A stretch of DNA of 64,000 nt from Knoellia sp. Soil729 (GTDB taxonomy: Bacteria; Actinomycetota; Actinomycetes; Actinomycetales; Dermatophilaceae): NCBI RefSeq assembly GCF_001427985.1, contig NZ_LMSA01000004.1:124604-188603 (forward strand), in the 5' to 3' direction. A model generated the notes under the pieces. It saw only the letters and a program-made list of their open reading frames with translations, made no database searches and was not told where the DNA came from. The translations under genes were made by a program, and so were the position numbers. Below are positions 1-64,000 of the stretch, one piece after another (within the stretch, counting starts at the first letter, position 1; each line of letters begins with the position of its first letter).

Positions 1-825
1 ACGCACCAGGCGCAGGCGCCACGCCTCGGGACCGCGCTCGAGGTAGTCGACCGTGAACACGCCGGGTGCGCGACCCTCGAGCTGGCGCAGGAGTGGCAGG
101 GGGTCGTGCGGCGCCACGAGGACCATGCCCTTGCCGGGCTGCACGGCGTCCAGCGCGCCGAAGATGGTCGCGTGGCGGATGGCGTGCGGGACCTGACGGG
201 CGTCGAGCTCGGGCAGCTCCTCGTCGTGTCCACCGCACCCGCAGGCGCCCGAGCCGGCCGCCTCGACCGGCGCGGACTCGGCGACCTCGCCGTGACCCGC
301 GTGACCGTGGCCCTCCTCGCCGTGGCCCTCCTCGGCGTGGCCCTCGTGGCCGCCGAGCAGGTCGTGCATGCCGTCGAGTGCCCCGGCGAGCGAGACCTGC
401 GGGTTGCTCGCGAGCAGCGGCAGGATCTGGTCGTTCTCCTTGGCCAGGTGGCTGTCGAAGGTCACCGCCAGGGCACGTGCCTCGGCGGCCGCGCGCACGC
501 GGCTGGGAGCCGAGCGCAGCGAGTCCACGAGCCCGATGATCAGCTGGTGCTCGACGAGCATGGCGTCGACGAGGAGCTGTCCGCGGGAGTCGGCGTGGGC
601 GAGGGGATACATCGCGGACTCCTCGGCCTTCGCGTGCGGGACGAGGTCACTCTCGGCCCACTGGACGAGCTCGTCGCGGGCGGCGAGGGCATCCTCGTCG
701 GTGCGCGCCGAGATGAGGCGTTCGACATGGGCGGCGAGCGTGCCGGCCATCTGGGCGTGGTGCTGCTTGACGGCCTCGACCGCGTCCGAGTCCTGCTCGG
801 TGCTGGCGATGACGATGGTGTTCAC
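1..825 (-). CDS. Hemerythrin-domain and DUF2249 protein (3' end beyond window)
   Basis: The start is GTG at 825, preceded by a strong AGGAGGT site 8 nt upstream. Residues about 10-145 form a hemerythrin-like four-helix region with spaced His and Glu residues, for example HH at 22-23, PHAKAEE, EHQLI and SHLAKEND. A His/Glu/Gly-rich linker (about 155-180) follows, then a CGCGGH cysteine cluster and the start of a DUF2249 domain that runs off the left edge. Hemerythrin-DUF2249 proteins are associated with di-iron NO/O2 chemistry and repair of nitrosative damage. It is divergent from the nitrite-reductase operon with a 70-bp shared promoter region, which supports a role in NO handling. The exact reaction is inferred. 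Confidence 0.85.
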   Translation of the reverse strand, partial: MNTIVIASTEQDSDAVEAVKQHHAQMAGTLAAHVERLISARTDEDALAARDELVQWAESDLVPHAKAEESAMYPLAHADSRGQLLVDAMLVEHQLIIGLVDSLRSAPSRVRAAAEARALAVTFDSHLAKENDQILPLLASNPQVSLAGALDGMHDLLGGHEGHAEEGHGEEGHGHAGHGEVAESAPVEAAGSGACGCGGHDEELPELDARQVPHAIRHATIFGALDAVQPGKGMVLVAPHDPLPLLRQLEGRAPGVFTVDYLERGPEAWRLRLVR

Positions 826-882
826 GGGGGTGACCTCCTGGGGCCTCCTGCCGCCCGGCTGGCGGCGACGACCCTTATTTAA

Positions 883-888
883 TACACT
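883..888 (+). promoter_or_regulatory. -10 element TACACT of a leaderless promoter for the HTH regulator
   Basis: TACACT lies 7 nt before the GTG at 896, so transcription would begin at or next to the start codon. The surrounding stretch 876-895 is strikingly AT-rich for this genome and is shared with the divergent hemerythrin gene. It is the likely operator for both. Confidence 0.55.
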
Positions 889-895
889 AGTTTCC

Positions 896-1624
896 GTGGA
901 TAATCCAACTGCTGACGCCGGCCTGCACCAGCGCATGGCGGCGGGGCTCGGCCCCGTCCCCTCGTCGACGAGCCGGGTCCACGAGGCGCCCGGACGTGCG
1001 GCTGCGGGTGTGCTCACGGCCCTCGAGGACTCCGGCGAGCCGGTGACCGTGGCGACGCTCGCCGAGGCCCTCGGACAGCACCCCAACACCGTGCGTGAGC
1101 ACTTGGACGCCCTCGTCGACGCAGGCCTGGCCGAGCGCACCCGTGCCGCGAGCGCCGGTCGTGGCCGGCCGGCCTGGCTGTATGCCGCGCTGCCGGCTGT
1201 CGCTGCCGGGTCCCGGGAGTACGCCGGCCTGGCCACGGCGCTCGCCCTGCAGCTGGCCCGCACGAGCGCCCACCCCGGTGACGAAGCAGCCACGGCCGGA
1301 CGCGCCTGGGGTGCCAGCCTGGCCACGGCCAGCGGGCGGCAGCCCCGGACGCGGCCGGGGGTCGAGCGTGGGGTCATGGGCATCCTCGACGAGCTCGGGT
1401 TCGAGCCGGAGTCACGTGGGCGCAGCACCACCGTCCGGCTGCGCCGCTGCCCACTGCTCGAGGCGGCCCGCGAGGAGCCCGAGGTCGTGTGCTCGGTACA
1501 CCTCGGCATCGTGCGCGGTGCGATGGACACGTGGGGCGCGGACACCGAGGGGGTCGGGCTCGTCCCGTTCGCCGAGCCCGGAGCATGCCTGCTCCACCTC
1601 GGAACGCCCAAGGGAACCGCCTGA
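896..1624 (+). CDS. HTH transcriptional regulator with C-terminal cysteines (SufR/ArsR-like)
   Basis: The N-terminal third is a winged-helix HTH (ALGQHPNTVREHLDALVDAGL, given here only in part as NTVREHLDALVDAG). The C-terminal half has cysteines in RRCPLLEAA, EVVCSVHLG and GACLLHLG, a pattern resembling COG2345/SufR-type regulators that bind an Fe-S cluster. I chose GTG at 896 because a TACACT box sits immediately upstream and no ribosome site is present. Its TGA overlaps the ATG of the next gene (TGATG), so it is the first gene of the nitrite reductase operon and probably regulates it. An NO-sensitive Fe-S cluster is an attractive but unproven sensor mechanism. Confidence 0.75.
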   Translation: MDNPTADAGLHQRMAAGLGPVPSSTSRVHEAPGRAAAGVLTALEDSGEPVTVATLAEALGQHPNTVREHLDALVDAGLAERTRAASAGRGRPAWLYAALPAVAAGSREYAGLATALALQLARTSAHPGDEAATAGRAWGASLATASGRQPRTRPGVERGVMGILDELGFEPESRGRSTTVRLRRCPLLEAAREEPEVVCSVHLGIVRGAMDTWGADTEGVGLVPFAEPGACLLHLGTPKGTA

Positions 1625-2808: not shown

Positions 2809-5414
2809 CCGGCGGCAGGCCCCGGCTCACCTGGCACCTCGGCGCCAACTCCGGCGTCGTCCTGTGGCTCGTGCTGCTCTTCATGAGCACGCTCGTGCAC
2901 CCCTTCGTGGCGCAGTCGCGGTGGCTCATGGTGCACCTGCTGCTCCTCGGTGCCGTCACGAACGCCATCCTCGTGTGGAGCACACACTTCGCCCACGCCC
3001 TCCTGAGGACACCTGCCGGTTCACGGCGCGGCGAGGTCGTGCGTCTCGTCGTCCTGAACGTCGGTGTCGCCACAGTGGTCGCCGGGATGCTGAGCGGGCT
3101 CTGGCTGGCCGTCCTCGTGGGTGCGGTCGTGGTCGGCGCTGTCGTTGCCGCACACGGCATCTCGCTGGCCCTCAAGGCCCGACGCGCCCTGCCGGCCCGC
3201 TTCGCGACGTCGGTGCACCACTACATCGCCGCGTGCTGCGCGCTGCCCGTGGGCGCCGCCCTGGGCACCCTGCTGGCTCGCCACCCGAGTGAGTCGACGC
3301 ACGGTCGTCTCCTGGTCGCGCACCTCACGGCCAACATCCTCGGCTGGATGGGCCTCACCGTCATCGGGACCCTGCTGACCCTGTGGCCGACGATCCTGCG
3401 CACCAAGATGACCGTGGGCGCCGAGCGCGCTTCCCGGCAGGCCCTCCCCGTCCTCGGAGGCGCCCTGTGCCTTGCCGCAGGCAGCGCCCTCCTCGGCATC
3501 CTCAGCCTCGCCGGTCTCGGGGTCATGGCCTACCTCGGTGCGACGCTGTGGGCCCTCCGGCCGGCCCTGGCCGCGGCTCGCGCACGGCCACCCCAGTCGT
3601 TCGCCGCCTGGTCGGTCCTGGCTGCGATCGGATGGCTCGCCGTCTCCCTGGTGTGGCTGACGGCCCTGCTCGTGACGTCTGCGGACTGGGTCACGGCCGG
3701 CGAACGCACCCACCAGGTGACCGTGCCGCTCGCCGTCGGTTTCGCGGCGCAGGTCCTGCTCGGCGCCCTGACCTACCTCGTCCCCGTCGTGCTGGGTGGA
3801 GGCCCAGCCCGGGTGCGCGAGCTCACCGCCATCCTGGAGCGCGGCGCCGCCCTGCGCATCGCTCTCACCAACGCCGGCCTCGCCCTGTGTCTGGCGCCGG
3901 TGCCGAGCCTGGTGCGGGTCATCGTCTCCATGCTCGTCCTCGGCTCGTTCGCGTCGTTCCTCGTCCTTCTGGCCACCGCCCTTCGCCTTTCCCGCCGGTC
4001 GGTCGAGCCGCCCGCCTCCCCACCCGTCCGGCACGTGCCGGAGCCGCGCGCGGTGGCGAGCGGACGGCATACGGGACTGGCAGCCGTGGGTCTGGCAGCA
4101 GTCGTCCTCGCCACCGCCGCAGGAGTCGCCGCGGATCCCGCCGCGCTCGGTGGGCTGGGGGTCACCGCTGCCGGATCCGTCAGCGCCACTGGTGCGACGA
4201 CCACCGTGCAGGTCGAGGCGCGGGACATGCGCTTCCACCCGGACTCGGTGACGGTCCCGGCGGGCAACCGACTGGTGATCGAGGTCGTCAACCGCGATGC
4301 CGACGTCCACGACCTCGCCCTCGAGAGCGGTGAGCGCAGCGGTCGCCTCTCCCCCGGAGCGAGCGGCCAGGTGGTGGTGCCGGTGGTCGGGCGCGCGCTC
4401 GACGGCTGGTGCACCATCGCCGGTCACCGCCAGATGGGCATGCTGTTCAGGGTCACCGTGACCGGGGCTCCGTCGGAGCACTCCGCACACGCCCTGACCG
4501 AGGCGGCGGCACCCCAGGGCGCTGCCCCACCGATCGACTTCATGGCCAAGGCGCCTCCGGGCTTCGCCGCCCGCGACGCAGCAGTGCCCCCGGCGCCGAG
4601 CACCACCGTGCACCGCGTGCGGCTCACCGCCCAGGAGGTCGTGTTCGAGGTGGCCATCGGTGTGCCACAGAGCCGGTGGACGTTCAACGGCACCGCTCCG
4701 GGACCGACGCTGCGCGGCCACGTGGGCGACCGGTTCGAGATCACCCTGACCAACGACGGGTCGATGGGCCACTCGATCGACTTCCACGCCGGCTCCCTCG
4801 CGCCGGACGGGCCGATGCGCACCATTGCCCCCGGTCAGTCGCACACGTTCTCGTTCGTGGCGACGCAGGCGGGGATCTGGATGTACCACTGCAGCACCAT
4901 GCCGATGTCGCTGCACATCGCCAACGGCATGTTCGGCGCCGTGGTGATCGACCCGCCCCACCTGCCGAAGGTCGACCGCGAGTACCTCCTCGTGCAGTCC
5001 GAGGTCTACCTCGGTGGGTCGGTCGCGTCGGGGTCCGACCCGGTGAAGGTGGCCACCGAACGTCCCGATGCGGTGGTGTTCAACGGATTCGCCAACCAGT
5101 ACGACCACGACCAGCTGCCTGCGAGGGTGGGTGAGCGGGTCCGCATCTGGGTCCTCGACGCCGGTCCGAGCCGCGCCTCGTCCTTCCACGTCGTCGGCGG
5201 ACAGTTCGACACCGTCTTCCGTGAGGGCAGCTATGACCTGCGGCCGGGTCAGCCCGGGAGCGTGGGTGGTGCACAGGCGCTTGCCCTCCTGCCCGCGCAA
5301 GGTGGCTTCGTCGAGCTCGTCCTACCGGGGGCGGGCCACTACCCGTTCGTGTCGCACGTCATGGTGGATGCCGAGCGCGGTGCCCACGGAGTGCTCGACG
5401 TCAGCGCTCGCTGA
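2805..5414 (+). CDS. nirK: Copper nitrite reductase fused to a membrane domain and an extra cupredoxin
   Basis: The 869-residue protein has three parts. Residues 1-400 carry about 12 membrane segments similar in kind to the upstream NnrS-like protein. Residues 465-560 form a cupredoxin with a type-1 copper set (VHD, WCTIAGH, QMGM). Residues 595-869 form a NirK/AniA-type two-domain nitrite reductase. Visible catalytic elements are GHSIDFH (type-1 His, catalytic Asp, type-2 His), YHCSTMPMSLHIANGM (type-2 His and type-1 Cys/His/Met), SSFHV (catalytic His) and FVSHV (third type-2 His), so the enzyme looks intact. It should reduce nitrite to NO outside the membrane, with electrons possibly passing through the tethered cupredoxin. 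Usual NirK is about 340-380 residues. Confidence 0.88.
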   Translation: MTGGRPRLTWHLGANSGVVLWLVLLFMSTLVHPFVAQSRWLMVHLLLLGAVTNAILVWSTHFAHALLRTPAGSRRGEVVRLVVLNVGVATVVAGMLSGLWLAVLVGAVVVGAVVAAHGISLALKARRALPARFATSVHHYIAACCALPVGAALGTLLARHPSESTHGRLLVAHLTANILGWMGLTVIGTLLTLWPTILRTKMTVGAERASRQALPVLGGALCLAAGSALLGILSLAGLGVMAYLGATLWALRPALAAARARPPQSFAAWSVLAAIGWLAVSLVWLTALLVTSADWVTAGERTHQVTVPLAVGFAAQVLLGALTYLVPVVLGGGPARVRELTAILERGAALRIALTNAGLALCLAPVPSLVRVIVSMLVLGSFASFLVLLATALRLSRRSVEPPASPPVRHVPEPRAVASGRHTGLAAVGLAAVVLATAAGVAADPAALGGLGVTAAGSVSATGATTTVQVEARDMRFHPDSVTVPAGNRLVIEVVNRDADVHDLALESGERSGRLSPGASGQVVVPVVGRALDGWCTIAGHRQMGMLFRVTVTGAPSEHSAHALTEAAAPQGAAPPIDFMAKAPPGFAARDAAVPPAPSTTVHRVRLTAQEVVFEVAIGVPQSRWTFNGTAPGPTLRGHVGDRFEITLTNDGSMGHSIDFHAGSLAPDGPMRTIAPGQSHTFSFVATQAGIWMYHCSTMPMSLHIANGMFGAVVIDPPHLPKVDREYLLVQSEVYLGGSVASGSDPVKVATERPDAVVFNGFANQYDHDQLPARVGERVRIWVLDAGPSRASSFHVVGGQFDTVFREGSYDLRPGQPGSVGGAQALALLPAQGGFVELVLPGAGHYPFVSHVMVDAERGAHGVLDVSAR
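4058..4072 (-). repeat. 15-mer repeat GTATGCCGTCCGCTC inside nirK coding sequence
   Basis: This is one of five exact copies in the window of the 15-mer; the others are at 37744, 45862, 61522 and, inverted, 61541. Here it is on the minus strand in the linker region of the reductase gene, read as SGRHTG codons. See the finding on the over-represented CGGCATAC motif. Confidence 0.7.
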
Positions 5415-8478: not shown

Positions 8479-9513
<1,035 letters not shown>

Positions 9514-9945: not shown

Positions 9946-10300
9946 GGAGGTCCCAGATCTGCTGGAGTCGGAGGGTCATGACAGCGACTGCGAAGGCACC
10001 CACGGCGATGGAGGCCATCGCCCACCGGGTCTTGTCCTTGATCGCACCCCAGACCGTGATGAGCAGGACGAAGGGCAGCGTCACGAGGTATGCCGTGAAC
10101 GTCGCCTTCGGCTCCGTGCCCTCCAGCGACATGATGCCGAAGAGCCCTCGGACGAACTGCACGACGACGCCGAGCTCCACGAGGGCGACGAGGCCCAGCA
10201 GCACGTTGCCGATGAGCCGGTCGAAGAGCGCGTACCCCAGGGCGACGACGGCGAGGAGCATCGCGGCGGCGACGAGCACTTGGGTGAGCAGGAGGAACAC
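9938..10300 (-). CDS. Small three-to-four-TM membrane protein
   Basis: A 120-residue hydrophobic protein from GTG at 10300 (MFLLLTQVLVAAAMLL), with three or four membrane segments and a short charged C-terminus. It is the first gene of a two-gene operon with the neighbouring membrane protein, whose start it overlaps. Upstream, 10301-10369 is the divergent spacer to a hydrolase gene. Function unknown. Confidence 0.75.
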   Translation of the reverse strand: MFLLLTQVLVAAAMLLAVVALGYALFDRLIGNVLLGLVALVELGVVVQFVRGLFGIMSLEGTEPKATFTAYLVTLPFVLLITVWGAIKDKTRWAMASIAVGAFAVAVMTLRLQQIWDLHA

Positions 10301-11968: not shown

Positions 11969-13195
11969 TCAGGCGGTCAGGGAATCCTTGACCGCCGCGA
12001 CGAGCTGGTCGACCTCGTCCTCGGTGATCACGAGCGGCGGCGCGAGGCGGATCGTCATGCCGTGGGTGTCCTTGGCGAGGATGCCGCGCTCCATGAGGCG
12101 CTCGCACAGCTCACGACCGGACGGCCCACCCGGGGTGACGTCGAGCCCGGCCCACAGACCACGGACGCGGACCTCGTCGAGGCCGTGCCCCACGAGCGGC
12201 TCGAGCCCGGCCAGCAGCCGCTTCCCCAGCCGGCGTGCGCGGTCCTGGTACTCGCCGGTGGCGAGCAGACGGCATACCTCGTGTCCGATGGCGGCAGCGA
12301 GCGGGTTCCCACCGAAGGTGGAGCCGTGCGACCCGGGCGTGATGATGCCGAGGACGTCCTTGTCCGCGGCGACGGCCGAGACCGGGTAGAGGCCGCCACC
12401 GAGCGCCTTGCCGAGGATGTAGATGTCGGGGACGACGTCCTCCAGGTCGCAGGCGAAGGTCGTGCCGGTGCGGGCCAGGCCGGACTGGATCTCGTCGGCG
12501 ACCATGAGGACGTTCTCCTGCGAGCACAGGTCCCGCAGCTCGCGCAGGAAGCCCTCCGGCGGGACGACGACGCCACCCTCACCCTGGATCGGCTCGAAGA
12601 GGACGGCCACCGTGAACTCGTCGATCGCGGCACGGACCGAGTCGATGTCGCCGTAGCGGACGGCGCGGAAGCCGGGCGTGTAGGGCCCGTAGTTGTCGTG
12701 GGCGACCTTGTCGTCGCTGAAGCTGATGATCGTCGTCGTACGGCCGTGGAAGTTGCCCTCCATGACGATGATGTTGGCGTGGTCCTCGGGCACGCCCTTG
12801 GCCTCGTAGCCCCAGCGGCGGCTCACCTTGATCGCGGTCTCGACGGCCTCGGCGCCGGAGTTCATCGGCAGCACCAGGTCCTTGCCGGTGAGCTCCGCGA
12901 GCGCCTGGGCGAAGGGACCCAGCTGGTCGTTGTAGAAGGCGCGGCTGGTCAGCGTCAGGGTGCCCAGCTGCTGGCGGGCGCGCTCGACGAGCTGCGGGTG
13001 GGAGTGCCCGAAGTTGAGGGCGGAGTAGCCGGCGAGGCAGTCGAGGTAGCGCTTGCCATCCACGTCGGTGACCCAGGCGCCCTCACCACTGGCGATCACC
13101 ACCGGCAGCGGGTGGTAGTTGTGCGCCGCGTAGCGCTCGGTCGTCTCGATGTGCTGCTCGGTGCTCACCGGTGCGGTGCTGTGCTCGGGCGTCAT
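11969..13195 (-). CDS. rocD: Ornithine--oxo-acid aminotransferase
   Basis: The 408-residue protein is a class III PLP aminotransferase converting ornithine and 2-oxoglutarate to glutamate semialdehyde and glutamate. Motifs include HNYHPLPVVI, LDCLAGYSALNFGHSHP, LPMNSGAEAVETAIK, FHGRTTTIISFS, EPIQGEGGV, the PLP Asp in VADEIQSGLARTG and the Schiff-base Lys in YILGKALGGGLYPVSAV, ending with STFGGNPLA. These are diagnostic for RocD versus ArgD. ATG at 13195 has AAGGAG upstream. It is convergent with the B12 protein, 4 bp away. It may be co-transcribed with pdxH, 50 bp upstream, which supplies PLP. Confidence 0.95.
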   Translation of the reverse strand: MTPEHSTAPVSTEQHIETTERYAAHNYHPLPVVIASGEGAWVTDVDGKRYLDCLAGYSALNFGHSHPQLVERARQQLGTLTLTSRAFYNDQLGPFAQALAELTGKDLVLPMNSGAEAVETAIKVSRRWGYEAKGVPEDHANIIVMEGNFHGRTTTIISFSDDKVAHDNYGPYTPGFRAVRYGDIDSVRAAIDEFTVAVLFEPIQGEGGVVVPPEGFLRELRDLCSQENVLMVADEIQSGLARTGTTFACDLEDVVPDIYILGKALGGGLYPVSAVAADKDVLGIITPGSHGSTFGGNPLAAAIGHEVCRLLATGEYQDRARRLGKRLLAGLEPLVGHGLDEVRVRGLWAGLDVTPGGPSGRELCERLMERGILAKDTHGMTIRLAPPLVITEDEVDQLVAAVKDSLTA

Positions 13196-13245: not shown

Positions 13246-13926
13246 TCAGGGCTGACGACGTCCCAGGGACCAGGCCTCGGCGTCATCGAGCGAGCCCTGC
13301 GCGACCCGGGTGAAGACGAGCCGGTCGTGCAGGCGGTTGGTGCGGCCACCCCAGAACTCGACCTCGTCGCAGAGGATCCGGTAGCCGCCCCAGAAGTCCG
13401 GGACCGGCACGTCGTCCGGGCGGCCGTGGTCGGGCCACTGGACGGCATACCGCCCGTATGCCGTCTCGAGCTCGGATCTGGACGTGGCCGGCTCCGACTG
13501 CCTCGAGGCCCACGCCGAGATGCGCGAGCCCCACGGCCGGGAGCCGAAGTAGTCGCTGACCTCGTCGCGACCCAGCGGGACGGCCCGGCCGCGGAACCGG
13601 ATCGCGCGGAACATCGCCGGCCAGGTGAGTGACGCGGCGACGTTCGGGTTGCCGGCGAGCTCCCTCCCCTTGGCGGACAGCGTGTTCGTGAGGAAGCCGG
13701 GACCGCGCTCGTCGAAGAAGCGCATGAGGACGGTGCGTACGTTGGGCACGCCATGGGCGTCGACGGTTGCGACGGAGATGGCATAGGGCTCGGGGACGTC
13801 AGCCTGTGCGCTGGACCGCTCGACGGCGTCGTCGACCCAGGCCTTGGCCTGCTGCCACGGCGTGGCCGCGACCTCGTCCTCGGAGAGCCCGGTGCCGGTG
13901 TAGTCGATGCGCGTCACGTCGTTCAT
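13246..13926 (-). CDS. pdxH: Pyridoxamine 5'-phosphate oxidase
   Basis: The 226-residue flavoprotein is expected to oxidise pyridoxamine/pyridoxine 5'-phosphate to PLP using FMN. Family motifs are PYAISVATVDAHGVPNVRTVLMR, FFDERGPGFLTNTLSAKG, VRF-like RFRGRAVPL, SRISAWASRQS and the C-terminal EFWGGRTNRLHDRL containing the substrate-binding RxH. Length is normal (about 215-230). It sits head of a pair with rocD, a PLP enzyme. An inverted pair of the motif GGCATAC/GTATGCC (13444-13462) lies inside the coding region. Confidence 0.95.
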   Translation of the reverse strand: MNDVTRIDYTGTGLSEDEVAATPWQQAKAWVDDAVERSSAQADVPEPYAISVATVDAHGVPNVRTVLMRFFDERGPGFLTNTLSAKGRELAGNPNVAASLTWPAMFRAIRFRGRAVPLGRDEVSDYFGSRPWGSRISAWASRQSEPATSRSELETAYGRYAVQWPDHGRPDDVPVPDFWGGYRILCDEVEFWGGRTNRLHDRLVFTRVAQGSLDDAEAWSLGRRQP

Positions 13927-48061: not shown

Positions 48062-48067
48062 CCAGAG

Positions 48068-48091: not shown

Positions 48092-48279
48092 CCGGGACGC
48101 ATCACCATCGGTCGCCTTCGCCATGCCTGACGGGGCTGGACGGACTGAAGCCCGATGCGAGGTCTTGGCAATAAGGCCTCCGGCAGGCTGCGGTCAAGCC
48201 CCTCAACCGAGGAAGTCACCCTCCCTTCGCTGGCATAACCAGACCATGGTCCTCCCAAGCATTTCGGCGGTTTCCGCCC

Positions 48280-48308
48280 TTCAACCTCGCGATGGTGGTA
48301 CTTATGAT
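48280..48308 (+). promoter_or_regulatory. Promoter of the GHKL ATPase operon
   Basis: TTCAAC (-35, 48280-48285) and TATGAT (-10, 48303-48308) are separated by 17 bp. The ribosome site GAGGGGG and ATG 48332 follow. The -10 match is strong and the -35 is partial. Confidence 0.55.
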
Positions 48309-48331
48309 CAGTGCTATCTGAGGGGGAATCT

Positions 48332-50179: not shown

Positions 50180-50181
50180 AC

Positions 50182-51165
50182 ATGACTTGGCAGCGCGCGT
50201 TTCCCTATGCCACCGATAATTTGGCCGTTGTAGGTGTAGCGAAGCTACTGAACAGTGACGTCCTCGAGCGATCCGATGGCACATGGGACGCGTACTCCGA
50301 GAGCGTCGCCTGCGTACGCTTTGCGCTGCGGATTGAAAGCCAGATCGATAGGCTCGCCGATTGCCTACCGCCGGGTGCCGACGTCGAGTGTACGCTCGAA
50401 CTCGTCGTGAGCCTCGAAGGAGTTCACTCTCGTCAGCGCCGAAACCTCTACACGCTGGACGTTGGATCACACGATTTGGAGATCGAACTCGACCCAGCCG
50501 AATATCTCGGGCGGGTTGACCTCGCGATCTCCGCCAGGCTGAAGACTGACCTACCGGCCCAGCCCGGCTTTGCGCACCTGAGGGCCTCGCGCGTCTCGCA
50601 AGTCTCACTTCCGAGCATCTGGTTCTCTGAGCCACCCACGTCGGTAGGAGACGCGCTAGAGGTCCGCTGGGAGAACTTCGACGAGGACGGAGACCTTGTC
50701 GACGGGCAACTCTTCGCAGTCCGACTGGAGGAACGGCCGGTGATTCTCCTCAACTCGGAGATCCCGAAGGCCTACGACATCCTTGGCTCGAAGGGGACTT
50801 GGGGCTCCGCCGCCCGAATCAGAGATGCCATCTACGGTCAGATTGTCCATCAGGCGTGGTCATCCATTATCGCGCATTGCATCCTAGAGATCACAAGACA
50901 TGATGAAGCGGATGCTCCTGAAACAGTTCTTGCCGAACTTGACGAATGGCAGGCCCAAGTGATCCGGGCGTGGGCGTCGGAGTTTGTACCCGGCGAGCCG
51001 GATCCCGAGGCTGCCGCAGTGACTCTCATTGAACACTGCCGCGAGACCGGAAGCTTAGTGCTGCTTCATCAACTCCCGGAAGTCATTCAGAGACGGTGCT
51101 CCACGATTGACGGGTTCAACGGCCTTATCAAGGAGTCCCACAGGTTCGATGGAGGTGGATCATGA
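50182..51165 (+). CDS. Uncharacterised defence-operon protein
   Basis: The 327-residue protein starts 2 nt after the ATPase stop, with AGGAGG upstream, so it is translationally coupled. Its N-terminal half is beta-rich (VECTLELVVSLEGVHSR ... HDLEIELDPAEYLGRVDLAISARLKTD), and its C-terminal half is helical (AWSSIIAHCILEITRHDEAD ... LDEWQAQVIRAWASEFV). The N-terminal region looks like a ligand- or nucleic-acid-binding beta-sandwich. No catalytic motif is seen and no family is recognised. Its stop overlaps the next gene (ATGA). Confidence 0.8.
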   Translation: MTWQRAFPYATDNLAVVGVAKLLNSDVLERSDGTWDAYSESVACVRFALRIESQIDRLADCLPPGADVECTLELVVSLEGVHSRQRRNLYTLDVGSHDLEIELDPAEYLGRVDLAISARLKTDLPAQPGFAHLRASRVSQVSLPSIWFSEPPTSVGDALEVRWENFDEDGDLVDGQLFAVRLEERPVILLNSEIPKAYDILGSKGTWGSAARIRDAIYGQIVHQAWSSIIAHCILEITRHDEADAPETVLAELDEWQAQVIRAWASEFVPGEPDPEAAAVTLIEHCRETGSLVLLHQLPEVIQRRCSTIDGFNGLIKESHRFDGGGS

Positions 51166-51833
51166 CGAGCCTGAAGCGGTTCGGTTCTCCAATTAACGGT
51201 GCCCAATTGCGTACGCTCATCGAAGGCCATGCCGTTCCCTCGACCCGGGACCTAGGAGCGTCTGCTGACTTGGGGCCGCTCAAGCAGGTTGTTGCGAGCA
51301 TCGCACACGGCGGATCCATCGAATCGTCGACGGACGCAGACCTTGCTCCTCACGTCCATGGGACATTTCGTGGTTTGCCACGAAGGGTCCTGCTGGATCA
51401 TCGATTCTGGCAGTGGTTAACCTGTATGGAGTTTCGTGAATACACACGCGCACGTTGGGCGCCGGAGGTCGATTTCACGCTTGACCCTGTGCTGAAGCCG
51501 AGTCAACAAGCCCGATTTCTTGGAAACGCGGGGCTCAATGGTCTGGGGCGCAATGCTCTGTCAAGGCTATTCTGGGCTGCGGAGGTGATGAACGACAGCG
51601 ACGAGGGCTACGTCCTTACCCGCGCCCTCTTCAAGAAACAGGACCTGGCGGTCGGCGTCGTTGAGCGTTCATTCGGTCTCATCCCGGAGGTCGCGAGAGC
51701 TTGCGCGCGCCACTTGGCTGACGTCCCAGAGAAAGAGCATCGTGAGGCGCTGAAGCGACTTAACCTGCGTGCATCCACAGTAGTCCTCGAGGGCGCATCC
51801 GAGGAACAAGTCCGCGCACTTCTTTTGGCTTAA
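51162..51833 (+). CDS. DUF6339-like protein of the defence operon
   Basis: The 223-residue protein starts at ATG 51162 inside the previous stop. It is helical, with the segment HRFWQWLTCMEFREYTRARWA followed by FLGNAGLNGLGRNALSRLFWAAEVM, which resembles DUF6339 family proteins from memory (moderate confidence). The Arg/Trp-rich patches and helical repeats could mediate protein or nucleic-acid contact. No nuclease or methylase motif is present, so the operon would need partners for catalysis. It ends the rightward operon and faces the leftward GHKL-nuclease gene, 280 bp away. Confidence 0.75.
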   Translation: MTSLKRFGSPINGAQLRTLIEGHAVPSTRDLGASADLGPLKQVVASIAHGGSIESSTDADLAPHVHGTFRGLPRRVLLDHRFWQWLTCMEFREYTRARWAPEVDFTLDPVLKPSQQARFLGNAGLNGLGRNALSRLFWAAEVMNDSDEGYVLTRALFKKQDLAVGVVERSFGLIPEVARACARHLADVPEKEHREALKRLNLRASTVVLEGASEEQVRALLLA

Positions 51834-51901
51834 GTCACATGTGAATGAGGGACTCACGGCTCGCCGTCGATGGTGAAATTTGGCCCTTAGGGAAACATCT
51901 G

Positions 51902-52156
51902 CTACGCGGCGCTGACTGATTGAACAATCGGCGGCCAATTCTGACGGACTGAGTAGAAAGCAGCCATTGACAACTGCACCAAGAGGGTTGGGTCTGTGAA
52001 CCTGTGAGCAAAGTCACGCTCCTCCCCCTTGATGTAAGTTGCGCAATCTTGGCCGTTCCTAGGGTTTTCTTGCGACAGTTCCTCGACATGAGCGCCGAGG
52101 TATGGCGTAGGACTGTTAGTCTTTCGAGACTCTTTCCGCAAGGCTTTTGAGTACAA
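51902..52156 (-). CDS. Possible small gene or out-of-frame tail after the GHKL-nuclease
   Basis: The 84-codon frame overlaps the last 41 bp of the GHKL-nuclease gene. Its C-terminal 60 residues look like real protein (EELSQENPRNGQDCATYIKG, HRFTDPTLLVQLSMAAFYSVRQNW), but no ribosome site or good start is seen. It may be a small coupled gene, or the natural C-terminus of the ATPase displaced by a frameshift. Confidence 0.35.
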   Translation of the reverse strand: MYSKALRKESRKTNSPTPYLGAHVEELSQENPRNGQDCATYIKGEERDFAHRFTDPTLLVQLSMAAFYSVRQNWPPIVQSVSAA

Positions 52157-53891
52157 TCACAGGAATTGGCTCTGGACTGATATCCAAAGGCAGGTTCAAT
52201 TCATGCGTCACTCCGTCGTACGGTGGTTGAGAGACCAGCGTTAGCGACATCCCGACTTCTGCCACCTTGGCATGATTGGCATCCCAGCAAACGAGCAGGT
52301 CTATGTCACCGATGGACTTGATCCCATCGCGGAAGTCGGTAAGAACAGATTCAAGCTTGTCCTTGAACTCGATGACCAGCGGCAGCACATCCCCACCACC
52401 CACGTAGTGGGCCAAGAGATCGTACTGAGTCGCGTAACCGGTCGCGAGTGGGCGGAAGTTCGCGATAACACCTGCGCCAAGCAATTCGTGGAAGAGGGCA
52501 GCAACAGCGGCCTCTTGATTTGTCGGAACCTTGTGGAATGCGATTCCTGGCCAATTTAGGTCGTGGCGACCTTCCGCTTCTTCCCACATTTTCTTGATTC
52601 GCAACTTCCTCTCTGCGGAAGTCTCGGGTGAGGGCGGAAGCGGCTTTGATTCCATGGGACCTTGGTATTTCGCTACCCGCTCAAACTGAATAAACAGCTC
52701 AGCAACCGCGTCTTGCAGTCGGCGCTTGTGCTGCCAGTGCATCGATTTTCGACCCAAGTCGAAATCGATGCGATCCGACTCGACCAAGAAAATGCAGCGC
52801 TTGTAGTACGCCGGGTAGGCGCCCCGTGCAGCAGGTTCGATTGTGATACCGGTGGGCATCGATTTCGTGACAACGAATATCCCAGCATGGAGGAGAGGGT
52901 TTGAGTCCTCTTGATTCATATCCAAATGATACGACTCGGCGAGCGTATCGATGGCCTTATTCCCGGGCAGCATGACTCCATAGACGCGAAGCGTGTCATT
53001 TCCGTGGCCGATCACCTTGCTGCCCACCACAACCTTGCCACCAAGGTACTTCCTAGAGGCGCTTTCGGACTTGCCAACTAGGTTGCTGTTGACTTCCTCG
53101 ATCGTAAGTGCCTTTGGGTTTGCAAGTGGCGGATAGCCAAACTCGACCTTCCCTTCCACATGTTCACCATCTACCGAAGTCCAAGAGTAGGTGATGAGAA
53201 TTGGTGGCAGGACCTCTCCCCGAAGTACTTGACGCGTGTCACCCACCGCGGTCCTAGTACGCAGGATCCACTTTAGTTGCTCCGTTGATAGGGAAAAGAG
53301 ATCGGTAGAGGACCGCGATGGAATTCCCGCGATGCGTATTCGAGTGAATGTACCCTGCTCAAAACCCTGAGGTACATCGACCTCGCCGCGCTTGGCGAAC
53401 TCCGGCGCATGCACTGCCGCGTCTTCACTAGAAACCCAAGTGGCGGCTCCCGTTAGGCTGCACCGCACGGCGTCCTCAGCACTACGTGTCTCAAGCGAAA
53501 AGTTGTCGCCACTAAAGGCGACGTAGGTTAGCCCGACGCCCTTCTCACCGATTTGGTGGTCCAGCACAGACTTGTCGCCGCCGCCAGGGGCTAGCACTTC
53601 CTCAACGAAGTGACTCGGAATCCCAACGCCATTATCGATTACATCGACTGCCCGCTGAGTCGCATCTAGAGAAATGTGAATCTGGCCCTCGACATGGGTC
53701 GACCCTGAAGCGGCCTCCAGTTCCCAACGCCTCTCGATAGCATCGCGCGAGTTCTGTAGGAGCTCTGCAAGGACGTCCCAGTAGTGGTGATAACTCTGGA
53801 GGATGCCCTTGAGTTCGCGTTTTACAGCCCGTGCGCTCTTAGCCCGAAGGAAGTCAGGGACTTCGTGACCTGACTGGCTAAACTGAACCAC
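52116..53891 (-). CDS. GHKL ATPase fused to a PD-(D/E)XK nuclease-like domain
   Basis: The 591-residue protein begins at GTG 53891 with AAGGGG upstream. The N-terminal GHKL domain has the N-box ELLQNSRDAIERR (Glu/Asn), DVIDNGVGIPSHFVEEVLAPGGG (G1) and GEKGVGLTYVAFSGDN (G2). The C-terminal 110 residues contain TQYDLLAHYVGGGDVLPLVIEFKDKLESV and DIDLLVCWDANH, whose D-x14-E-x-K spacing fits a PD-(D/E)XK nuclease core. The pairing of a MutL/MORC-like ATPase with a nuclease and with Dcm and Vsr is a known restriction-system architecture. It should be the restricting subunit. Confidence 0.88.
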   Translation of the reverse strand: MVQFSQSGHEVPDFLRAKSARAVKRELKGILQSYHHYWDVLAELLQNSRDAIERRWELEAASGSTHVEGQIHISLDATQRAVDVIDNGVGIPSHFVEEVLAPGGGDKSVLDHQIGEKGVGLTYVAFSGDNFSLETRSAEDAVRCSLTGAATWVSSEDAAVHAPEFAKRGEVDVPQGFEQGTFTRIRIAGIPSRSSTDLFSLSTEQLKWILRTRTAVGDTRQVLRGEVLPPILITYSWTSVDGEHVEGKVEFGYPPLANPKALTIEEVNSNLVGKSESASRKYLGGKVVVGSKVIGHGNDTLRVYGVMLPGNKAIDTLAESYHLDMNQEDSNPLLHAGIFVVTKSMPTGITIEPAARGAYPAYYKRCIFLVESDRIDFDLGRKSMHWQHKRRLQDAVAELFIQFERVAKYQGPMESKPLPPSPETSAERKLRIKKMWEEAEGRHDLNWPGIAFHKVPTNQEAAVAALFHELLGAGVIANFRPLATGYATQYDLLAHYVGGGDVLPLVIEFKDKLESVLTDFRDGIKSIGDIDLLVCWDANHAKVAEVGMSLTLVSQPPYDGVTHELNLPLDISPEPIPVIVLKSLAERVSKD

Positions 53892-53941
53892 AGATACCCC
53901 TTAAGACGAAAGGACAGCGCTGACACCGCGCTAACCGCACC

Positions 53942-54421
53942 CTACAGCCCCCCCTTCCGGTTGGGGATGGGTTGTGATGCCGCCTTAGGCGACACCAGGT
54001 CGCTTAACGCTTGCTCGACGCTCCCAGCGACTACCAAGAGGTTGTTTCGCACGTCATGCTCCCACACACGAAGGACTCGCCAAGCATGTTCTGTCAATAG
54101 CTGCGTCGTCTCAGAATCGCGTACCCGGTTCCGATCGATCTTCTCTCTCCACCACTCGGCATTAGCCTTCGGAGGGACGCCATGGATGGGGCATCCGTGC
54201 CAGAAGCAACCGTCCACAAAGATGGCAAGGCGCTGCCGTGGAAACGTGATATCTATCGTTCGGCGGGGCAGGCCTGGTACCGGGTAATTCACTCTGTATC
54301 GCATCCCGCGACGAAACAATTCCCGACGAAGGGCCATCTCAGGACGCGTGTCTCGCGTCTTCTGGCGCCTGAAGCGGAGCCGTACTCTCTCACTGGAGGG
54401 CTGTGGTCGAGCCTTTACCAT
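53942..54421 (-). CDS. vsr: Very short patch repair endonuclease
   Basis: The 159-residue protein shows the Vsr signature: MSRTRPEMALRR-like KTRDTRPEMALRRELFRRGMRYR, the catalytic Asp in RRTIDITFPRQRLAIFVDGCFWHGCPIHG, and PKANAEWWREKIDRNRVRD. It nicks at T:G mismatches made by deamination of 5-methylcytosine, or acts as a nuclease in R-M systems. ATG 54421 has GAGG 5 nt upstream. It lies 35 nt after the dcm stop and 50 nt before the GHKL-nuclease start, in one operon. Confidence 0.93.
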   Translation of the reverse strand: MVKARPQPSSERVRLRFRRQKTRDTRPEMALRRELFRRGMRYRVNYPVPGLPRRTIDITFPRQRLAIFVDGCFWHGCPIHGVPPKANAEWWREKIDRNRVRDSETTQLLTEHAWRVLRVWEHDVRNNLLVVAGSVEQALSDLVSPKAASQPIPNRKGGL

Positions 54422-54455
54422 GCATCCTCAACTCTTGGGGCAGATTTTCTGGACC

Positions 54456-55862
54456 TCAGCGGTCCAGCACTGCCGCCACCCGCTCGGCGATCTGCACCGC
54501 AAGAAGCGGCGGCACGGCGTTCCCAACTTGGTGGTATTGCATGGTTCGCGGTCCGGCGAACCAGTAATCGTCTGGGAAGGTTTGAAGCCGTGCTGCCTCG
54601 CGGACGGTCAGACTTCGCATCTGACGTGCGTCCGGGTGGATGTAGTAATGGCCGTCCTTGCTGATGTGCGATGCCACAGTGCTACTGGGAGCATCCCATC
54701 GCTGCACTTTGAAGCGATCAGAGAACGGTGTCCCCTGTCCCGAAATGTTGCTGTGCATCGGCCGGAGGCCGGGCGGGAACTCGTGAACTCGGCGCGATAT
54801 GCCCCTAGCTGCCAATATGGCCAAGTAGGCATATCGCGCGAGATCGAGGTCCATGTGGGCCCGCGGCTCGTGCAGTGAGATGGGTGCGCTGCACCCGTTC
54901 AACCAAGTTCGAAGCTCAGCGTGCGCGGTGCCGTCCGTCGCGGGCAATCTCGGGACTCCGTGCACCTCACGCTTGGCAAGCGTAGAACCAAGGATCTGGG
55001 CGGACCCCCACGTGAGGCCCCCAGGTCGACGACGCGATACCGATGACTTCACCTGAGGCAGGTCCCCGATGGCATCCCTTACCGTGGTGACAGAGGCGGT
55101 CTGTGCGAGGGGCACAAGTCGCTGGGTGCCTATGTCGGAACGCACTCCGACCAAAATGACGCGGTGCCGCGCCTGCGGGATCCCATATCGCTCGGCCCGC
55201 AGGACGAAGTCTCGCGGCTCTACGTCACCCCCCGGAACGGCAAGGCTTCGAATCTCGTAGGCGCCCCCCAGTTGCAGGTCGTCGATGATGCGATCCATCA
55301 TGCTCTTCCCCCCGTGCCCAGCCGAGAGGAGACCTTTGACGTTCTCCATTACAAAAACGGATGGTCTGAAGCGGCGAAGGATGTCCAAGTACTCCCGGTA
55401 TAAAAAGTGCTTCTTGTCGTCCTCAAATGACTCGTCGTTCGTCCGACGTGCCCGACCGATGAGCGAATACGCTTGGCAGGGTGGGCCACCGATTAGAACC
55501 CAGTGTTCAGCGCCGCTGATGGCTCCCTTGATCAGCCGGCCCGCCTCGGCGCGCGCTTCAGGGCCCAACTCTATGGCATGAACGTGATCTTCAGCCTTGG
55601 CCATTTGAGCCGCGAATTCAGCGTTCCCGAGCAGATCACGAACAGAGGTCTTTGAGGCTAGCAGGTCGCGGTAGGGCCCGTAGAGCTCGGTGTCACGGCT
55701 GAGCGCCCGGACGGCAGAGCGGATCTTGAGGGTCTGCACTGCATGACGGTCCATTTCGAACGACGCAGTGATGTCGAAGACTGGCTCACCGTCGCGCTTG
55801 AACTGCGCAAAGCCTTCATTGAGTCCTCCTGGCCCTGCGAAGACATCGACTACTGGCAGCAT
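54456..55862 (-). CDS. dcm: DNA (cytosine-5) methyltransferase
   Basis: The 468-residue enzyme has C5-MTase motifs in order: I (VVDVFAGPGGLNEGF), IV (LIGGPPCQAYSLIGRAR, catalytic Cys), VI (VFVMENVKGLLS), VIII (YGIPQARHRVILVGVRSD), a target-recognition region (about res. 270-370) and IX/X (VREAARLQTFPDDYWF, YHQVGNAVPPLLA). There is a long insert (about res. 50-105) between motifs I and IV. It methylates cytosine in an unknown site and would protect host DNA from the nuclease. ATG 55862 has AGGGAG upstream. It is the first gene of the dcm-vsr-GHKL operon. Confidence 0.95.
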   Translation of the reverse strand: MLPVVDVFAGPGGLNEGFAQFKRDGEPVFDITASFEMDRHAVQTLKIRSAVRALSRDTELYGPYRDLLASKTSVRDLLGNAEFAAQMAKAEDHVHAIELGPEARAEAGRLIKGAISGAEHWVLIGGPPCQAYSLIGRARRTNDESFEDDKKHFLYREYLDILRRFRPSVFVMENVKGLLSAGHGGKSMMDRIIDDLQLGGAYEIRSLAVPGGDVEPRDFVLRAERYGIPQARHRVILVGVRSDIGTQRLVPLAQTASVTTVRDAIGDLPQVKSSVSRRRPGGLTWGSAQILGSTLAKREVHGVPRLPATDGTAHAELRTWLNGCSAPISLHEPRAHMDLDLARYAYLAILAARGISRRVHEFPPGLRPMHSNISGQGTPFSDRFKVQRWDAPSSTVASHISKDGHYYIHPDARQMRSLTVREAARLQTFPDDYWFAGPRTMQYHQVGNAVPPLLAVQIAERVAAVLDR

Positions 55863-55928
55863 CTGCGCTGATCTCCCTTATTCACTTCCACAAATGTACC
55901 TGCCTTAATGATCCGCTTACCTTGATAC

Positions 55929-55966
55929 GCGAGCGGCTCCTAGGCACGCGCCCAAGAGCCACTCGC
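55929..55966 (-). terminator. Hairpin between nrdJ and dcm
   Basis: Arms GCGAGCGGCTC and GAGCCACTCGC (one non-pairing position) enclose 16 nt and lie about 40-75 nt after the nrdJ stop, on its strand. It likely ends the nrdRJ transcript before the defence operon. Confidence 0.6.
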
Positions 55967-56002
55967 GATTGGCCGCCCTCTCGGACCTCAGGTCAGATCA
56001 GA

Positions 56003-58957: not shown

Positions 58958-59116
58958 GGTGTGGCTCCCTCTTCTGCCCGGCTCAACCCGGACGATTTCT
59001 GTGACTTCATTGATGAGTATTGACGTGACCACTGACAGTGGCCGGGGGGTCGCACGAGGCGACCACAGTGCGGTGTTCTTCCGTATGCCGCGTGGTCCGG
59101 GGCGGCGGTGGAGCCG

Positions 59117-59632
59117 TCAGCCCGGCGGGGCGACGGGGGCACCCGAGCTGCTCGACGGCATACGTTCGGGTTCTCGACCCAGCGCCTCGCGCTCGACCCG
59201 GAGCAGGGTGATCGCCTGCTCGAAATCCTCGAGGCTGTCGAAGGCCTGGTAGACGCTGGCGAACCGCAGGTAGGCGACCTCGTCGAGGCTGCGCAACGGG
59301 TCGAGGACGGCCAGGCCGACCTCGTGGGCGTCGATCTCGGCCTGACCGGCGGCCCGGATGCTCTCCTCGACCTGGTGGGCGAGGAGGGCGAGCTGGTCCT
59401 CGGTGACCGGGCGACCCTGGCAGGCCTTGCGGACGCCGACGAGGACCTTGGCTCGGCTGAACGGCTCGGCAGCACCGGACCGCTTGACCACGGACAGTGC
59501 CGCGGTCTCGACGGTCGTGAAGCGCTTGCCGCACTCGGGGCACTGACGGCGACGGCGGATGCTGGCACCGTCGTCGGTGGCGCGCGAGTCCATGACGCGA
59601 GAGTCGGTGTGACGGCAGAACGGGCAGTGCAT
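59117..59632 (-). CDS. nrdR: Transcriptional repressor NrdR
   Basis: The 171-residue repressor has the N-terminal zinc finger [17 protein letters not shown] with [12 protein letters not shown], and the ATP-cone domain ([24 protein letters not shown], then [28 protein letters not shown]) that binds ATP/dATP. It represses nrd genes when dATP is high by binding paired NrdR boxes. It is the first gene of the nrdR-nrdJ operon with a 160-bp spacer between the two. Confidence 0.97.
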
Positions 59633-60875: not shown

Positions 60876-60908
60876 GCCGCCGAGTATGCCGCGCTCCCCC
60901 TCTCTCCG

Positions 60909-61516: not shown

Positions 61517-61560
61517 CGCAGGTATGCCGTCCGCTCACTTGAGCGGACGGCATACCTGCG
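61517..61560. terminator. Perfect 20-bp-stem bidirectional terminator of inverted GTATGCCG motifs
   Basis: Arms CGCAGGTATGCCGTCCGCTC (61517-61536) and its exact inverse (61541-61560) enclose ACTT. Each arm contains the exact 15-mer GTATGCCGTCCGCTC. It lies between the convergent flavodoxin-like gene and the 61572 gene. Confidence 0.85.
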
Positions 61561-62418: not shown

Positions 62419-63027
62419 ATGGGACCCATGAGCGCGGAGCCCGAGTGGGAGACGCACCCCGTCACGCCCGACCGGTTCGAGGACTTCGCCGACGTCATCA
62501 ACAAGAACCGGCGCCAAACCCACTGCTGGTGTCTGTCGCACCGCCTCACGGTCGGTGAGATCGGCGAGCTCGGCGGCGACGCTGACGACCAGCGAGAACA
62601 GGCGATGCGCGCCCTCTGCGAACGCGAACACCCACCCGGTGTCGTGACGTATCTCGATGGCGAGCCGGTCGGCTGGTGCAACATCGGCCCCCGCGTCGAG
62701 ATCACCCGGCTCGCTCGTTCCAAGCTCATGCTCGCGACCGACGACCTGCCAGTGTGGAGCATCGTCTGTCTCGTGGTGCGCAGTGGCTACCGCAAACGGG
62801 GCGTGACACGTCACCTCATCGAGGGCGCCGTGGACTACGCCGGGGCCAACGGCGCACCCGCCATCGAAGCCCACCCCGTCGACCCCCAGGGGCGGATGGA
62901 TCTCACGATGGCCTTCGTCGGGACGCGAGCCATGTTCGAGCGCAACGGTTTCGAGGTGGTCGGCACGACTGGTGCCACGGCAAGCAAGATGCCGCGGCTC
63001 ACGATGCGCCGCACCCTCTTGGGCTGA
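62419..63027 (+). CDS. GNAT-family N-acetyltransferase
   Basis: The 202-residue protein has the GNAT core: DGEPVGWCNIGPR (beta4), DDLPVWSIVCLVVRSGYRKRGVTRHLIEGAVDYAGANGA (motif A, RxxGVxxHLI for the acetyl-CoA pyrophosphate) and AMFERNGFEVVG (motif B). The N-terminal TVGEIGELGGDADDQREQ is an extra helix region. It acetylates an unknown small molecule or protein. ATG 62419 is preferred because AGGGGG lies 8 nt upstream. It is followed by a terminator. Confidence 0.9.
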   Translation: MGPMSAEPEWETHPVTPDRFEDFADVINKNRRQTHCWCLSHRLTVGEIGELGGDADDQREQAMRALCEREHPPGVVTYLDGEPVGWCNIGPRVEITRLARSKLMLATDDLPVWSIVCLVVRSGYRKRGVTRHLIEGAVDYAGANGAPAIEAHPVDPQGRMDLTMAFVGTRAMFERNGFEVVGTTGATASKMPRLTMRRTLLG

Positions 63028-63049
63028 GGAGCGCCGGCCAGAAGGCAAA

Positions 63050-63084
63050 CTGCCGGGGGTGAGCGAGGTGCTCACCCCCGGCAG
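63050..63084 (+). terminator. Perfect 15-bp-stem hairpin between GNAT and protease genes
   Basis: Arms CTGCCGGGGGTGAGC and GCTCACCCCCGGCAG enclose GAGGT. It lies 22 nt after the GNAT stop and about 40 bp before the convergent protease stop, so it may serve both. Confidence 0.85.
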
Positions 63085-63122
63085 GTCCAGGGTCATGCTG
63101 CGTCAGTCTGGGAACCGATGCG

Positions 63123-64000
63123 TCAGCTGACAGCCTTGAGGGCGTCAACCATGCCCTCTCCGTAGAAGCTGTTGTCCTCGGCAGTGCCCAGGCACGCGTC
63201 ACCCCTGGTGGTCACGGTGCAGGCCGTGTCGGTCGCGTCCGCGCGCAGCTTGGCCACCATCTGCTCGGGGGTGAGCTCCGGGTGGGCGGTTTTCATGAGC
63301 GCGAGGACACCCGCGACGTGCGGGGAGGCCATCGAGGTGCCGCTCTTGTAGCCGTACCAGTTGTTCGCGACGATCGTCGACAGGATGTTGCTGCCGGGGG
63401 CCGCGACGTCGATGACGCCCAGACCACGGTTCGAGAACGACGACAGCGCACCGGTGCTGGTGGCTGACGACACGGTGGCGACTCCGGGGAGCTCGGCCGG
63501 GATGTCCTGGCACCCGTCGTTGAGCTTTCGGACCACCGCGGTGCCGTCATTGGGACTGCCACGGTCGGTGATCTTGGACTTGTCGGACAGGTCGTAGGCC
63601 GAGTTGCCCGCAGCCGCGGCGTGCACGACGCCCTGCTTGGTCGACCACGCCACGGCGCGGCTCACGGCCTCCTTGGCAGCGGCCTGGTCGGGCTGGTCGC
63701 TGCACCAGAACTCGAACGGGTCGACGTAGTAGCTGTTGTTCGTGACGTCCATGTGCTTCTGGCCCGCCCAGACGAAGCCACACACGGCGTACTCCGGGTA
63801 GATGAAGCCCTCGTCGCTCACAACCTTGACCGCGGCCATGCGCACGTTGGGCGCGACACCGACGATGCCGACGCCGTTGCGCGGCGCGGCGATCGTGCCC
63901 GCGACGTGGGTGCCGTGGTCACTCGTGGTGGGGTTCCAACCGGTCGCCGAGGTGTCCGGGCGCCCGCCGTTGGTGCAGTTGACCGAGTCAGCCACGTCGA
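63123..64000 (-). CDS. S8 serine protease, paralogue of 21261, 5' part beyond window
   Basis: The visible 292 residues begin DVADSVNCTNGGRPDT and contain catalytic His (DHGTHVAGT) and Ser (SGTSMASPHVAGV); the Asp lies outside the window. It shares with the 21261 protease the blocks FIYPEYAVCGFVWAG, VTNNSYYVDPFEFWC and C-terminal NSFYGEGMVDA, including extra cysteines likely forming disulfides. The C-terminal end is complete at 63123. It is presumably exported like its paralogue. Confidence 0.9.
   Translation of the reverse strand, partial: DVADSVNCTNGGRPDTSATGWNPTTSDHGTHVAGTIAAPRNGVGIVGVAPNVRMAAVKVVSDEGFIYPEYAVCGFVWAGQKHMDVTNNSYYVDPFEFWCSDQPDQAAAKEAVSRAVAWSTKQGVVHAAAAGNSAYDLSDKSKITDRGSPNDGTAVVRKLNDGCQDIPAELPGVATVSSATSTGALSSFSNRGLGVIDVAAPGSNILSTIVANNWYGYKSGTSMASPHVAGVLALMKTAHPELTPEQMVAKLRADATDTACTVTTRGDACLGTAEDNSFYGEGMVDALKAVS

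Follow-up and report, generated by a model that had tools for sequence, protein, structure and literature searches.

The 64,000-nucleotide stretch of Knoellia sp. Soil729 analyzed here (the window; NZ_LMSA01000004.1, positions 124,604 to 188,603) is rich in a short word, the octamer GTATGCCG/CGGCATAC, which is probably a DNA uptake sequence for natural transformation. Observed are the copy number, symmetry, and conservation of the word, its origin by substitution, its absence from the sampled stretches of low guanine-plus-cytosine (GC) content, its dialects in relatives, and the presence of comEA, comEC, and Tad-type genes; from these we infer a bias of uptake, a receptor, and a drive. As in an uptake sequence, the excess is large and found on both strands, there is no replication polarity, sites diverge by point mutation, and related genomes use dialects. 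These cells very probably undergo natural transformation with this word as the signal. The idea of an uptake signal had been raised in an earlier note on this DNA, and it gains support here, since the word is enriched genome-wide, is symmetric, has dialects, and is neither a product of codon bias nor a mobile hairpin.

Abundance and strand symmetry of the word

The window contains 31 copies of the octamer, whereas 100 dinucleotide shuffles average 1.2 and never exceed 5; the earlier note had counted about 28 and expected about two. This enrichment extends to the whole genome (G000; 3,605,744 bases in 8 contigs), which has 2138 copies (1083 forward and 1055 reverse, about 0.6 per kb), versus 89 for the reversed word that served as the control (51 forward, 38 reverse). 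In 864 kb from G000 and its single-contig genus-mate G003 (the sister chromosome), an order-2 Markov model predicts 17.3 copies and 498 are observed, a ratio of 28.8. Single-base variants of the word in the same 864 kb reach at best 3.6-fold over expectation, and at least four of them fall below 0.4.

The copies are divided evenly between strands. Across the 110 family genomes that are rich in the word, the largest imbalance is 6%. When strands were assigned by GC skew in 20 stretches around the G003 chromosome, 127 copies were on the positive-skew strand and 124 on the other, so that neither strand nor replichore skew is seen and polarity of the KOPS (FtsK-orienting polar sequence) or Chi type could be set aside.

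Most individual sites are where the earlier note had placed them. Ten of its 12 example octamers are exact, and the other two start one base earlier than given, at 16356 (not 16357) and 59156 (not 59157). The exact 15-mer GTATGCCGTCCGCTC occurs at 4058, 37744, 45862, 61522, and 61541, as described, with one-mismatch forms at 12263 and 35697. Both hairpins that it drew (45862-45896 and 61517-61560) are also real: the first has arms at 45861-45876/45882-45897 that are 88% complementary, and the second has perfect 21-nt arms at 61517-61537/61540-61560 (100% complementary).

Dialects in related genomes

We counted GTATGCCG in 186 genomes of the family and called it enriched in 110 of them, which have 300 or more copies and also exceed the reversed control by a factor of at least 2.5. 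K-mer scans for other words, made on fetched stretches from 41 genomes, revealed that several genomes without this enrichment are rich in one-base variants of the word. A GTACGCCG dialect, called at 300 or more copies per Mb and no less than 6 times the control count, is used by 10 genomes (for example G121, 4185 copies versus 207 for the control). A GGATGCCG dialect, called at 600 or more per Mb and no less than 5 times the control count, is used by seven (for example G082, 4480 versus 262), and three of these seven, G082, G084, and G085, pass for GTATGCCG as well. These two lists were hand-picked from whole-genome counts. The reversed word serves only imperfectly as a background, because GGATGCCG and GTACGCCG exceed it in most genomes, and for this reason the thresholds were set by hand and differ. 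G061, with 785 copies of GTACGCCG, is just under its threshold.

The remaining word, CGAAGGGGG, is an unrelated 9-mer. It is present in 797-1939 copies, equally on both strands, in all 19 genomes of genera g63 and g67, and in at most 80 copies in each of the other 167 family genomes. The named Janibacter limosus has it 9 times in 23 kb, and in related stretches it is scattered, now and then as inverted pairs. Counting all four words, 143 of the 186 family genomes carry one.

Dialects can differ within a genus. In genus g25, G118 uses GTACGCCG (1463 copies), and G119 and G032 use GTATGCCG (3681 and 1062). The weak GTACG[GA]CG excess in G118 belongs to the GTACGCCG dialect by whole-genome count (1463 versus 114 for the control), and codon noise was dropped as its source for this reason. 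In a ComEC tree built from 39 genomes, whose bootstrap is not fully settled, neither the GTACGCCG users nor the GGATGCCG users form one clade; each of these two words has changed more than once on this tree. The two CGAAGGGGG genomes included cluster together (100/99).

Outside the family, GTATGCCG alone was counted, in 318 genomes that represent 19 further families of the order; none is enriched, and the highest count is 180, for which the control is 195. By the ribonucleotide reductase encoded in the window, the organism is closest, among named genomes, to Phycicoccus endophyticus and Pedococcus bigeumensis (86%), with Janibacter, Terrabacter, and Ornithinimicrobium next, in a comparison that may omit very close records; it very probably belongs to the Intrasporangiaceae/Dermatophilaceae. 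Of 14 loci of 14-23 kb from named organisms, those of Pedococcus (9 and 13 copies), Terrabacter (6), Metallococcus (21), and Flexivirga (10 and 11) are rich in the word, those of Ornithinimicrobium, Leekyejoonella, and Arsenicicoccus hold 4-5 copies, and those of Phycicoccus endophyticus, Intrasporangium, Janibacter (two loci), and Kytococcus hold 0-1.

The dialects bear on the rival explanation that survives best, that the word is the site of a chromosome protein (a nucleoid organizer, a Chi-like hotspot, or a KOPS-like segregation site) kept by selection on chromosome handling. The word is genome-wide and conserved, with near-random spacing (coefficient of variation 0.90 in 464 kb of G000) and 3 to 21 copies per 20 kb of the G003 chromosome, and it is missing from low-GC stretches, all of which would fit such a site. 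However, strand polarity relative to replication is typical of KOPS-like sites and usual for Chi-like sites, and the counts by GC-skew strand given above have none. Furthermore, a change of specificity would need thousands of sites to be rewritten together, yet there are four words in one family and two inside a single genus (G118 compared to G119 and G032). We consider a chromosome-protein site unlikely.

Some further variation was seen among the relatives. A relaxed dialect, GTATGNCG, appears in G011, G066, and G064, in which GTATGACG, GTATGGCG, or GTATGTCG is also raised, and likewise in the named Flexivirga and Arsenicicoccus loci (L017, L021, L020). GGATGCCG is somewhat raised in G009 (1336) and G181 (1210) relative to other genomes of genus g2, a genus that adjoins a GGATGCCG user on the ComEC tree; this excess is possibly a decaying relic of the GGATGCCG dialect. 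Near loss of GTATGCCG is seen in G141 (genus g68, 50 copies) and G065 (genus g52, 37 copies), whose genus-mates have hundreds to thousands, and these two genomes are natural cases for finding which gene was lost.

Sequence context and placement of sites

The octamer is the core of an extended form, in which GTATGCCG is preceded by a weak A-rich segment at -10 to -7 and followed by T..YGCYC and by another T about one helical turn further on. At 113 intergenic sites, A occurs at 30-35% from -10 to -7, compared to a background of 17%, and the downstream preferences are T at +8 (48%), G at +11 (66%), C at +14 (63%), and T at +18 (44%). The favored sequence covers some 30 bp in all and includes A and T positions on either side of the core. 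The commonest 15-mer among the 498 sites is the one singled out in the earlier note, GTATGCCGTCCGCTC, at 14 of 498.

We divided 464 kb of G000 into genes and intergenic DNA with a simple purpose-written gene finder, which called 404 genes. The 247 sites in this DNA comprise 189 within genes, 57 between genes, and one across a gene boundary, which corresponds to 0.47 per kb in genes and 0.86 per kb between them.

This anatomy also speaks to a second rival, that the word resembles the cyanobacterial highly iterated palindrome (HIP1) and is driven by sequence-specific methylation or repair bias instead of by a function. Differences between genomes by point substitution and an extreme excess in both coding and non-coding DNA would be expected of such a word. 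On the other hand, GTATGCCG is not palindromic, a preference spread over some 30 bp with outer A/T positions is not what one would expect of a short site for repair or a methylase, and some family members use other words. A HIP1-like origin is, in our view, quite improbable.

Two short stretches in genus-mate comparisons, L103:6143-6198 and L103:15775-15839, match at many places and in both orientations; they are possibly extended paired copies that work as terminators.

Conservation and origin of sites

Conservation was assessed at 16 sites in one 20-kb region, compared to 8 genus-mates using only alignments above 400 bits, which left 24 of 128 site-by-genome cells unaligned. The octamer is identical in 67 of the 104 aligned cells (64%), whereas 1426 octamers of the same composition are identical in 35% and the octamers adjoining the sites in 12-33%. 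In the 37 changed cells, 36 differences are substitutions (to GTACGCCG, GTAGGCCG, and similar words) and one is a gap. Thus, sites are gained or lost through point substitutions, and the word is kept while the flanks vary.

These data largely dispose of a mobile hairpin or repetitive extragenic palindromic (REP)-like family dispersed across the genome. Such a family would account for the two window pairs that form perfect or near-perfect hairpins and for the short pieces of one region that match genus-mates at many places in both orientations. However, 189 of the 247 sites are inside genes, only 8 belong to close inverted pairs (starts less than 30 bp apart), and word-free orthologous loci differ by substitution in 36 of 37 changed cells; insertion of a unit of the REP or miniature inverted-repeat transposable element type at an otherwise intact site was not seen. 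The mobile family, which these results already contradict, retains very little probability.

Codon, dipeptide, or codon-pair bias, for which one can cite that two frames (Tyr-Ala and its reverse) hold 145 of the 189 coding copies, is contradicted and is scarcely credible as the source of the word, because synonymous-codon shuffles of the 404 genes with their proteins kept yield a mean of 11.8 and a maximum of 22 copies in 200 shuffles, all six reading frames show the excess, density is greater between genes, and minor codons are chosen to make the word (TAT in 80 of 91 G-TAY-GCC-G contexts versus 13% overall, and GCA in 65 of 104 xCG-GCN-TAC contexts).

Low-GC DNA and viruses

The word is scarce in DNA that appears to be recently acquired and in phages, although this is seen on few bins. 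Among 121 4-kb bins, the four below 65% GC (16 kb) have 0 copies versus 8.9 expected (P = 0.00014). Two of these are the 48-56 kb part of the window and two are in L106. Over all 121 bins, density does not correlate with GC (Spearman 0.07, P = 0.46), and it is the four low-GC bins that carry the effect.

In IMG/VR, the 15-mer matches 35 viral stretches and the reversed 15-mer matches 14. Further octamers number 13 in the 303 kb of the former (0.043 per kb) and 10 in the 116 kb of the latter, and none of these 35 plus 14 stretches, drawn from viruses regardless of host, carries four or more octamers.

Competence and pilus genes

The genome has genes with which DNA could be taken up. comEC and comEA are about 12-14 kb past the end of the window. 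ComEC scores above the Pfam Competence and NCBIfam ComEC_N-term cut-offs and misses that of the full-length ComEC/Rec2 model (166 versus 190 bits), and ComEA has an SLBB and a helix-hairpin-helix domain. There are three TadA-type ATPases in G000, one above the TIGR03819 cut-off and two with TIGR03819 as their best sub-threshold match. The first is clustered with a small DUF4244 protein that looks Flp-like by eye, the second is accompanied by two TadE proteins, one Tad (TadE/G-like) protein, and a small protein judged Flp-like by eye, and the third is next to a CpaE/MinD-like protein.

Several results weigh against an uptake sequence. No word passes in 43 of the 186 family genomes. ComEC is found in 180 of the 186 and a TadA-type ATPase match in 184 (168 above the curated cut-off), genomes without any motif included. 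Inspection of 39 ComEA sequences by eye revealed no obvious residue that tracks dialect. The N_methyl type IV pilin signature, which marks the class of known or proposed uptake-word receptors, has no match in G000 and matches in 4 of 186 family genomes; such a pilin was dropped as the receptor for lack of a match in G000. Finally, only four close inverted pairs occur in the 464 kb of G000 (8 of 247 sites), one of them inside a gene, and the suggestion that copies are frequently paired as terminators does not generalize. Genomes with DNA uptake sequences (DUS) are reported to hold inverted terminator pairs in high numbers (PMC3630211).

For the 43 genomes, part of the motif-less genera were scanned (k-mers, 20-60 kb), and the words that emerged did not rise above the background from codon bias; undetected dialects in these genera are possible. 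As for the genes, ComEA, ComEC, and a type IV filament are present, but the presence of ComEC or of a TadA-type ATPase does not track the motif; the earlier note had suggested looking for a correlation with competence genes such as comEA and comEC. Being near-universal in the family, ComEC and the TadA-type ATPase do not discriminate and are uninformative as predictors; they permit an uptake sequence and do not prove one.

A survey of T2SSE ATPases in 12 genomes found a second Tad-type ATPase (the kind at G000:C2:169311) in G000, G003, G118, G033, G122, G207, and G181. It was not listed for G127, G022, and G086, all three motif-less, yet the carriers G207 and G181 are motif-less as well, and a link between this ATPase and the motif is at most suggestive. 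Close to the Tad pilus cluster of the first TadA-type ATPase is a gene for a TIGR03817 DECH-box helicase (L227:4556-6772); that it serves DNA uptake is speculation.

A proposed model

We propose a model in which a surface receptor, likely a Tad/Flp minor pilin, would bind GTATGCCG in free DNA. Word-bearing DNA would be drawn in and handed to ComEA and ComEC, and the DNA of close kin would be preferred in this way. Because word-bearing fragments would be incorporated by recombination more often, point mutations that generate or preserve the word would spread, and thousands of copies would accumulate. An altered receptor specificity could then give rise to new dialects in relatives. Tad minor pilins are, by analogy only, the likeliest receptor class.

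We favor, with some reserve, the broader view that a Gram-positive family has an uptake-sequence system in which a receptor of the Tad/Flp pilus type reads the word, and in which changes of the receptor have switched the word several times, once by full replacement with an unrelated word (CGAAGGGGG). If so, uptake-sequence systems would have arisen independently a third time. An unrelated case in another phylum and envelope would offer tests of molecular drive versus selection for kin DNA, of how receptors change specificity, and of whether Tad pili can read DNA sequence. The several dialect switches, some within one genus, provide natural pairs for a receptor search. In practice, adding the right word may ease transformation of environmental actinobacteria of this family.

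Comparison with known systems

The family belongs to a different phylum from the Neisseriaceae, one with a Gram-positive type of envelope, unlike theirs. The DUS of Neisseriaceae is the 10-mer GCCGTCTGAA with its dialects (PMC3630211). Like it, the present word occurs in thousands of copies within and between genes, with some inverted pairs and with dialects that follow related species, and its extended form contains GCCGTCCG. Unlike in the DUS, the CTG core required in Neisseria lies outside the conserved core GTATGCCG, inverted pairs are few here and numerous in DUS genomes (PMC3630211), no receptor of the ComP type, a type IV minor pilin, was found by the N_methyl search of G000, and two genera use an unrelated word. 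The window copy at 12263-12277 (GTATGCCGTCTGCTC) contains GCCGTCTG, eight bases of GCCGTCTGAA, maybe by chance.

The uptake signal sequences of Pasteurellaceae, AAGTGCGGT (Hin-USS) and ACAAGCGGT (Apl-USS) (PMC3630211, PMC12616744), are different words. They share with ours a core accompanied by weaker outer A/T preferences and dialects that differ within the core (PMC12616744). In that family a type IV minor pilin has been proposed as the receptor, whereas here only Tad/Flp-type genes were found. Coevolution with correction for the tree has been analyzed for PpdA (PMC12616744).

A closer organism is Micrococcus luteus, an actinobacterium that undergoes natural transformation with Flp/Tad-like pili and ComEA/ComEC homologues (PMC6370729). 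Knoellia resembles it in having comEA, comEC, and Tad-like clusters, and the part of PMC6370729 drawn on here mentions no uptake word. Among the matches listed in a search of the open-access literature, which excludes subscription papers and preprints, there was no earlier report of uptake sequences in actinobacteria.

Features of the window

Table 1. Copies of the word and low-GC features in the 64,000-nucleotide window.
Feature	Coordinates	Strand or remark
GTATGCCG	1180..1187	+
Exact 15-mer GTATGCCGTCCGCTC	4058..4072	-
GTATGCCG	8531..8538	+
GTATGCCG	10088..10095	+
One-mismatch 15-mer GTATGCCGTCTGCTC	12263..12277	-
GTATGCCG, half of intragenic close inverted pair	13443..13450	-
GTATGCCG, partner of the 13443 copy in intragenic close inverted pair	13456..13463	+
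GTATGCCG	16356..16363	-
GTATGCCG	17437..17444	+
GTATGCCG	18177..18184	-
GTATGCCG	21015..21022	-
GTATGCCG	23095..23102	-
GTATGCCG	23219..23226	+
GTATGCCG	26118..26125	+
GTATGCCG	29367..29374	-
GTATGCCG	34618..34625	+
One-mismatch 15-mer	35697..35711	-
Exact 15-mer GTATGCCGTCCGCTC	37744..37758	+
GTATGCCG	38158..38165	-
GTATGCCG	39475..39482	+
GTATGCCG	39673..39680	-
GTATGCCG	40772..40779	+
GTATGCCG	42289..42296	+
Intergenic inverted pair, extended copies, terminator-like hairpin	45861..45897	octamers 45862 +, 45889 -
GTATGCCG	47687..47694	+
Motif-free low-GC island	48001..56000 (47,695-56,000 as island)	58-60% GC vs 70% in sampled genome
PDC-M33A-like protein	48311-50179	low-GC island
HATPase protein	52116-53891	low-GC island
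C5 DNA (cytosine) methylase	54456-55862	low-GC island
GTATGCCG	59083..59090	+
GTATGCCG	59156..59163	-
GTATGCCG	60884..60891	+
Intergenic inverted pair, exact 15-mers	61517..61560	octamers 61522 +, 61548 -

The low-GC part of the window (47,695-56,000) is probably a defense island of acquired DNA without the signal. The other low-GC bins are in L106 (G000:C5:20001-40000), a 20-kb stretch that averages about 64% GC and has a single copy of the motif where about 12 are expected. L106 encodes a Mutator-family transposase and a ring-hydroxylating oxygenase, and is a probable acquired catabolic island.

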